64,000 nucleotides of DNA from Leptolyngbya boryana PCC 6306 (lineage in GTDB: Bacteria; Cyanobacteriota; Cyanobacteriia; Leptolyngbyales; Leptolyngbyaceae), in assembly GCF_000353285.1 (NCBI RefSeq), contig NZ_KB731324.1, forward strand, positions 2,932,577-2,996,576, in the 5' to 3' direction. Below are positions 14,789 to 16,239 of the stretch, in pieces (positions within the stretch are counted from its first letter, which is position 1; each line of letters begins with the position of its first letter). Position numbers and translations under genes: made by a program. The notes below the pieces were generated by a model. The model made no database searches. It saw only the letters and a list, made by a program, of their open reading frames with translations, and had not been told where the DNA came from.

Positions 14789-15688
14789 TTACGTTTCGGT
14801 TGAACCAAATACCATCTGCACGACAAATGGTTTTCCACCTTCTTGATGATACCGATCGGCCCAGTTGCGTAATATTTCGTCCAGTTCTGCGATCGCATCT
14901 CTCACGCGATCATCTGGAATATCTAATTCTTCTAAGACGCGCATGACCTGATCTTCTCGCTTTGCCCAGTCTTGCATCAAGCGAAAAAATCGCGCTGTGT
15001 CTTCAATCATGACATAAGCGCGTTCTTCTTGGTCTTCAGGTGAGTAAGATGCTCGGGTGAGCGCATAGAAAGGCATTCCCCAAGGCGACTCGATGCGAGT
15101 GACGGTTCCAGAGTAAAGCAGGCGGCGCTTGATATGCTCTGCCAGTGCTTCACTCAAGGGCATTCGCTGCTCTGGTGGAAGATCTTCTTGCGATCGCGTA
15201 TTCAGAAACTCGATGAGTTCTAAAAACTGAAAGGAGTTGATCAGTTGGGCATCGGGCAGATTGTTGGGCAATTTCTGTTCGATTTGGCGCTTTTCTTCAG
15301 AAGTCAAACTGGTTCCAGGAACTCGTGAGCGTCCCGGTTGCCAGGGGTATTGCTCCATCCAGACGTAGGGTAACTGAATCAAATACCGAGGTTCTTGTGA
15401 CCCTAGCATTTTCAAGAGTTTGCCTTCGGTAAGAGCTTGTCTGACTTCTTCCACGATCGCCTTTACTCGTTTGGGTTCGATGTGGTGCAGATGACCCGTC
15501 ATCCGGATGTTGCCATCTTGCTCCAAGTAAGTCATGTAAATCGCGCACTTGGCAGCTGTTGCGGCTGCGTCTAGGAATGCGCCATGACGATGACCGCCCG
15601 TTCGCATTGCGCTAAACGCCAGATACAACATAATCTGATCCATTGCACTAGGGCTGAGAAGTTTGATCAGATCTAGGTCATTTGTCAT
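14789..15688 (-). CDS. hetR: HetR, master regulator of heterocyst/pattern development
   Basis: DNA-binding regulator, 299 residues as in Anabaena. The N-terminal DNA-binding unit contains [17 protein letters not shown] and [17 protein letters not shown]. Residues studied in Anabaena HetR are all kept at the same numbers: Cys48, Ser152 and Ser179, and in the C-terminal hood Arg223, Arg250, Glu253, Glu254 and Asp256, which receive the RGSGR inhibitor peptide. HetR also occurs in many non-heterocystous filamentous species, so its presence signals a filamentous organism rather than heterocysts. A patX-like gene lies upstream on the same strand. Confidence 0.98.
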
Positions 15689-16047
15689 ATCGATCGCGCC
15701 ACCGCTGAAACAAAGAACACGAATACAATCAAAACGATGCCGAAATCCAGTCTACAGCGAGAGTCTGTATTTCAACAGGAATTCTCTCAATACAGAGCAA
15801 AACTTCATCGTTGGCATACGTTAACAATTTTATCTTTAATAGATTTCGATAAAATTGCTTTTTTGAACGTGCCCAACTCTCGCTGAAAACTCAACAGTTG
15901 GGTCTTATAGTGCTTCGTCAGGGAATAGACTGCGATCGTCGATGGAAAAAAATTAAAGAGGGAGATCGACCCTCTAGAAAAGCGATCTCCACACAGTTTG
16001 GAAGCTCAATGTAAACTGTTCAGATTGAAAAGCTGAGATTGAGAAAA
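15689..16047. promoter_or_regulatory. Intergenic region between hetR and the patX-like gene
   Basis: 359 bp without a gene. It must hold the hetR promoter and leader. It contains the patX terminator (15944-15975) and a 7-bp hairpin (CCCAACT 15872-15878 with AGTTGGG 15896-15902). I found no GTA-N8-TAC NtcA site and no copy of the Anabaena HetR-binding palindrome by eye. Confidence 0.5.
15944..15975 (-). terminator. Rho-independent terminator after the patX-like gene
   Basis: On the minus strand AGAGGG (complement of 15970-15975) pairs with CCCTCT (complement of 15957-15962) around a 7-nt loop, followed by TTTAATTTTTTT (T-run at 15945-15951). It lies 72 bp past the stop of the small gene and shows that this gene is a transcription unit of its own, separate from hetR. 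GGAGATCG (15961-15968) can alternatively pair with CGATCTCC (15983-15990), overlapping the terminator stem. Confidence 0.75.
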
Positions 16048-16239
16048 TTAGATGAGAAAGTTCATCTGTTCGAGTTGGGTTTCGATCCGTCCGCTGCCCC
16101 GATGGGCAAGTGTGTGTGGAATCAGTTGAGGGGCGTTTAACTGAGAGGCGGCGGGGAAGAAACGCTCGGTGGTGTAAGAACCGATAGCAACTGCTCCAAT
16201 GAGCCAGCTAAAGAGTGCAACCAAAGTTTGAGCGCGCAT
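16048..16239 (-). CDS. patX: PatX-like RGSGR-peptide precursor upstream of hetR
   Basis: A 63-residue protein with an N-terminal hydrophobic segment (LVALFSWLIGAVAIGSY, residues 6-22) resembling a signal peptide or anchor. Residues 46-51 read HRGSGR (codons at 16087-16104). RGSGR is the PatS-type pentapeptide that binds HetR. Small exported proteins with HRG(S/T)GR encoded just upstream of hetR are known as PatX in filamentous cyanobacteria. GAGGA precedes the ATG and a terminator follows the gene. A 12-residue tail (IETQLEQMNFLI) follows the motif. Location, size, anchor and motif all agree; processing is inferred. Confidence 0.9.
   Translation of the reverse strand: MRAQTLVALFSWLIGAVAIGSYTTERFFPAASQLNAPQLIPHTLAHRGSGRIETQLEQMNFLI

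Follow-up and report, generated by a model that had tools for sequence, protein, structure and literature searches.

The window analyzed here, a stretch of 64,000 nucleotides from the filamentous cyanobacterium Leptolyngbya boryana PCC 6306, carries an intact hetR gene preceded on the same strand by a short open reading frame encoding an RGSGR peptide, and the identity of these two genes as a PatX-HetR pair is near certain. The pair likely works as an activator and its inhibitor, with HetR blocked by an exported HRGSGR peptide so that an alternative cell state is set in the filament. It does not represent a novel type of system: Elhai & Khudyakov (2018, as cited in PMC7761841 and PMC11298460) had already described PatX-HetR from nearly all filamentous cyanobacteria, and deletion mutants of the pair exist in another Leptolyngbya (PMC11298460). 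The main value of this locus lies in the promoter evidence upstream of patX and in the multi-copy precursors of its relatives; in other respects it is an ordinary, if well-placed, example of a module that is known but not fully understood. The coding features, all on the minus strand, are as follows.

14789 to 15688, minus strand: hetR, 299 aa, identified by profile match and by alignment to solved HetR.
16048 to 16239, minus strand: patX, 63 aa, with HRGSGR at residues 46-51 and orthologues 5' of hetR in relatives.
16087 to 16104, minus strand: the stretch of patX coding for HRGSGR (residues 46-51), the presumed HetR-inhibiting hexapeptide, with the motif kept in the orthologues found.

The HetR protein is a full-length match to the NCBIfam equivalog NF009718 in a profile search (578 bits, cut-off 489), also matches Pfam PF03574 and PF18460, and aligns end to end and without gaps with the solved HetR structures 3qod and 4hri, all of which bears out the first-pass annotation of the gene as intact. 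It shares 96% identity with the HetR of Leptolyngbya sp. Prado105, and a search of the bacterium's own genome returned a single copy of hetR. Every residue that the same annotation had singled out (C48, S152, S179, R223, R250, E253, E254 and D256) was found in place, and the hood-domain residues that contact RGSGR (R223, R250, E253, E254, D256 and D270) are all kept. Across 104 HetR sequences, R223, R250, E253, D256 and D270 do not vary, while E254 and L252 vary slightly.

The 63-residue PatX sequence (MRAQTLVALFSWLIGAVAIGSYTTERFFPAASQLNAPQLIPHTLAHRGSGRIETQLEQMNFLI) was read directly and places both the open reading frame and HRGSGR where they had been reported. The protein had also been said to end with HRGSGR, which is incorrect, since 12 more residues (IETQLEQMNFLI) follow the motif. 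Its N-terminus, at about residues 5-20 (LVALFSWLIGAVAIG), is hydrophobic as judged by composition alone, and the orthologues carry hydrophobic segments as well. The first-pass annotation would have been refuted had related genomes lacked HRGSGR-containing homologues upstream of hetR, and this did not happen: RGSGR reading frames of 51-121 aa were found there at 29 of the 30 hetR loci sampled in the family, the window's own included; patX-type frames also precede hetR at 22 of 23 sampled loci in family f24 and at all 12 sampled in f13. The outer neighbours turn over: among 35 named loci with patX upstream, psaC lies downstream in three and an FAD oxidoreductase lies upstream in four.

The possibility that HRGSGR is a chance match within a non-functional reading frame was weighed against this linkage. 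In its favour, the degenerate [H/Y]RG-x-GR pattern, searched at the DNA level, is no commoner across the 7.26-Mb genome than its reversed control (5 matches versus 7), so the significance of the motif comes from its position and conservation. Both are strong enough to refute a chance origin, the probability of which is negligible: the signal-like N-terminus, the motif and its position are retained in the orthologues at 28 of the 29 other family loci, and dN is lower than dS for patX in all pairs tested, so that constraint acts on the reading frame at the protein level. A genome-wide scan for a second RGSGR precursor returned matches at chance level only. The sole other in-frame HRGSGR was rejected as a precursor, as it lies in a 20-codon frame within another open reading frame.

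The region upstream of patX contains two candidate regulatory elements.

16292 to 16297, minus strand: TCCTGA, a variant of the DIF1 motif (TCCGGA), 58 nt 5' of the patX ATG.
16325 to 16338, minus strand: candidate NtcA site GTAGGTGCGACTAC (GTAN8TAC), whose left half shares bases with the upstream gene's stop codon.

TCCTGA differs from DIF1 by one mismatch. Of 46 distinct loci, 43 have TCCTGA[T/C] between -75 and -50 of the patX start, where only 0.6% per locus would be expected. TCCTGA may serve as a -35 element. The founding work of Elhai and Khudyakov is reported to have placed a DIF1-type motif no more than about 69 nt before patX. Exact TCCGGA is absent upstream of patX, where the one-mismatch variant at -58 is the only form of the motif; the published DIF1 catalogue tolerated one mismatch (PMC6133370), and in heterocyst formers DIF1 drives hetR, patS and patX via HetZ (PMC7377430). 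An exact NtcA-type GTAN8TAC site is present at -99 in six congeners and at -104 in L090, a conservation that is partly explained by the overlap of its left half with the upstream stop codon. No HetR-type GGGN5CCC site was found between patX and hetR across the genus or at the two hetP loci, which counts against the activator-inhibitor reading. Together, the patX promoter motifs yield a concrete nitrogen prediction and make the role of the pair testable. In several other genera (L107, L097, L020) an inverted repeat, CCGTATCA ... TGATACGG, flanks the presumed -10 of patX and is possibly an operator.

The two genes are separated by a long intergenic stretch that holds a further element.

15689 to 16047, minus strand: patX-hetR intergenic stretch, 359 nt, in which blocks directly ahead of the hetR ATG are conserved in a six-congener alignment.
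15961 to 15990, minus strand: hairpin followed by a T-run, 3' of patX, which probably acts as a terminator or attenuator between the two genes.

The hairpin has a predicted energy of -15.1 kcal/mol and the tail ATTTTTTT; among the six congeners 95.8% of its cells are paired and three pairs show compensatory change. A covarying hairpin with a T-run implies that transcription of patX may be separate from that of hetR, and, given the 359-nt gap as well, the arrangement suggests that the two genes need not be co-transcribed. Just 5' of the hetR start (15689-15760), the block GTATTCGTGTTCTTTGTTTCAGCGGTGGCGC is almost invariant in the six congeners and is possibly a promoter, ribosome-binding site or leader element.

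The first-pass annotation had seen no heterocyst genes, which holds within the window and fails genome-wide. A profile search of the genome identified nifH (467 bits, cut-off 394), and the nif cluster, its reading frames named by sequence reading, comprises nifB, nifS, nifU, nifH, nifD, nifK, nifE, nifV and a CnfR/PatB-like regulator. The same annotation had proposed looking for hetP elsewhere, and two genes of the HetP family (NF037966) do exceed the cut-off. Each of these (L114 and L115, at G000:C1:2175930 and 5284999) adjoins, by eye, a reading frame for an HlyD-like membrane-fusion protein. The nif genes are no proof of heterocysts because the closest relatives are Leptolyngbya-type filaments, and, judging from these relatives, the host is probably a non-heterocystous, diazotrophic filament. 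Since the genome combines nif genes and two hetP-family genes with a single hetR and a single patX, it might allow the ancestral module to be tested with little redundancy.

What the pair may do in such a filament can be outlined by analogy with Nostoc, in which PatX is exported and cut by PatP and the hexapeptide HRGTGR binds HetR (PMC12756182). The patX product would likewise be a precursor exported via Sec, and its cleavage in the periplasm, by PatP as in Nostoc, would release the HRGSGR segment, which would then enter the producing cell or its neighbours. There the peptide would bind the hood domain of HetR, a DNA-binding regulator, and block its binding to DNA. The pair could thereby set which cells of the filament adopt an alternative state, and its promoter, with NtcA-type and DIF1-like elements, may couple this choice to nitrogen status. 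The alternative state is probably necridium formation or trichome fragmentation, which is the most tentative step of the scheme. Anabaena without RG(S/T)GR regulators forms necridia and fragments in nitrogen-replete medium, and the authors of that study conjectured that fragmentation was the ancestral role (PMC7761841). A role outside heterocyst formation, as the first-pass annotation had envisaged, is an idea that finds good support, in a setting where the function of HetR and PatX in filaments that never make heterocysts has been called 'a mystery' (PMC11298460).

HetR inhibition is not directly transferable to this lineage, because in Leptolyngbya sp. BL0902 the effects of PatX on transcription appear independent of HetR: the transcriptomes of the double deletion resemble those of the patX deletion and not those obtained without hetR alone, from which the authors drew the conclusion that the action of PatX is basically independent of HetR (PMC11298460). 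PatX could accordingly signal through another receptor for the exported peptide, with its linkage to hetR reflecting shared ancestry or regulation, and the separate terminator-like hairpin 3' of patX fits such a division. The invariance of the RGSGR-contacting residues in the HetR sequences compared, together with the retention of RGSGR, is nevertheless what binding would lead one to expect, and BL0902 has three HetR-like reading frames (PMC11298460) where this genome has one; we regard independence from HetR as unlikely here. A different question, compatible with the inhibitor reading, is whether the beginning of patX, besides coding, also acts at the nucleotide level, as a small RNA or an overlapping regulatory element. 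Among six congeners, synonymous identity reaches 90% in patX codons 2-28 (16156-16239 spans the first 28 codons), compared with 57% in hetR after its first 28 codons and 65% in the part of the upstream gene that encodes the C-terminus, and in the closest pair dS is 0.19 in patX against 0.94 in hetR. The synonymous excess over hetR is, however, significant in only two of the three pairs tested (L084/L086 shows none, P = 0.63), the stretch is short, and synonymous identity is likewise raised (71%) at the 5' end of hetR. Predicted folding is not unusual either (z about 0), which led us to discard RNA structure as the cause of the conservation, and a second function of this kind is accordingly doubtful. 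Part of the patX start is also open in one forward and in one antisense frame; neither makes a clear gene, and an overlapping reading frame was set aside as well.

Compared with the PatX of other filamentous cyanobacteria, the present one is similarly small, with a hydrophobic N-terminus, an RG(S/T)GR motif, a DIF1-type motif upstream and a HetR in the genome; it differs in having TCCTGA in place of TCCGGA, and in an NtcA-type site that is present despite an apparently non-heterocystous lineage. The published NtcA association was reportedly for heterocyst formers. Leptolyngbya sp. BL0902 is also non-heterocystous, has patX immediately upstream of hetR and has a predicted DIF1 promoter, whereas it has no nif genes, and the terminator-like hairpin between patX and hetR sets the present locus apart (PMC11298460). 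Many genomes in f13 contain between two and four HetR-like matches, compared with one in the window's genus, a difference in copy number that may bear on the divergent behaviour of PatX in BL0902. The PatP-PatX-HetR system of Nostoc PCC 7120 shares the order of a signal sequence followed by H-RG(S/T)GR; the motif is HRGTGR there and HRGSGR here, and its output is heterocyst spacing (PMC12756182). In the apparently Nostoc-type family f32, none of 23 loci has an RGSGR reading frame in the 1.5 kb upstream of hetR.

In some relatives of PatX, a single signal sequence is followed by three to nine tandem [H/Y/D]RGSGR units, and many precursors with two to nine RG(S/T)GR units sit directly upstream of hetR.

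Loci with two to nine RG(S/T)GR units: L100, L103, L119, L126, L127, L129, L131, L132, L133, L135, L138 and L141.
Further loci with two to nine RG(S/T)GR units: L191, L213, L214, L217, L218, L220 and L222-L227.

The L100 precursor has eight units, that of L103 five and that of L119 three, and those of genus g103 have between four and nine; at least two units are present at all 12 hetR-upstream loci sampled in f13, and a multi-copy precursor shares a short fragment with hetR in twelve distinct genomes. These proteins resemble multi-copy precursors of peptide pheromones, and their tandem units, a form of evidence supplied by nature, suggest that function resides in the short peptide. No report of multi-copy RGSGR precursors was found in the papers searched, which did not include the founding PatX paper, and novelty is therefore not claimed. 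One possible, still speculative synthesis would have patX expressed under NtcA and from a DIF1-like promoter in a heterocyst-free, nitrogen-fixing filament, where the PatX peptide might restrain HetR according to nitrogen status and so pattern, for instance, necridia or fragmentation, related lineages having raised the dose of the signal with precursors of up to nine units, much as in the yeast alpha-factor precursor. A further arrangement is seen at L118 (G031:C4:66595), where a precursor with three RGSGR and three RASGR units is encoded at a distance from hetR, the same genome also having a single-copy patX beside hetR.
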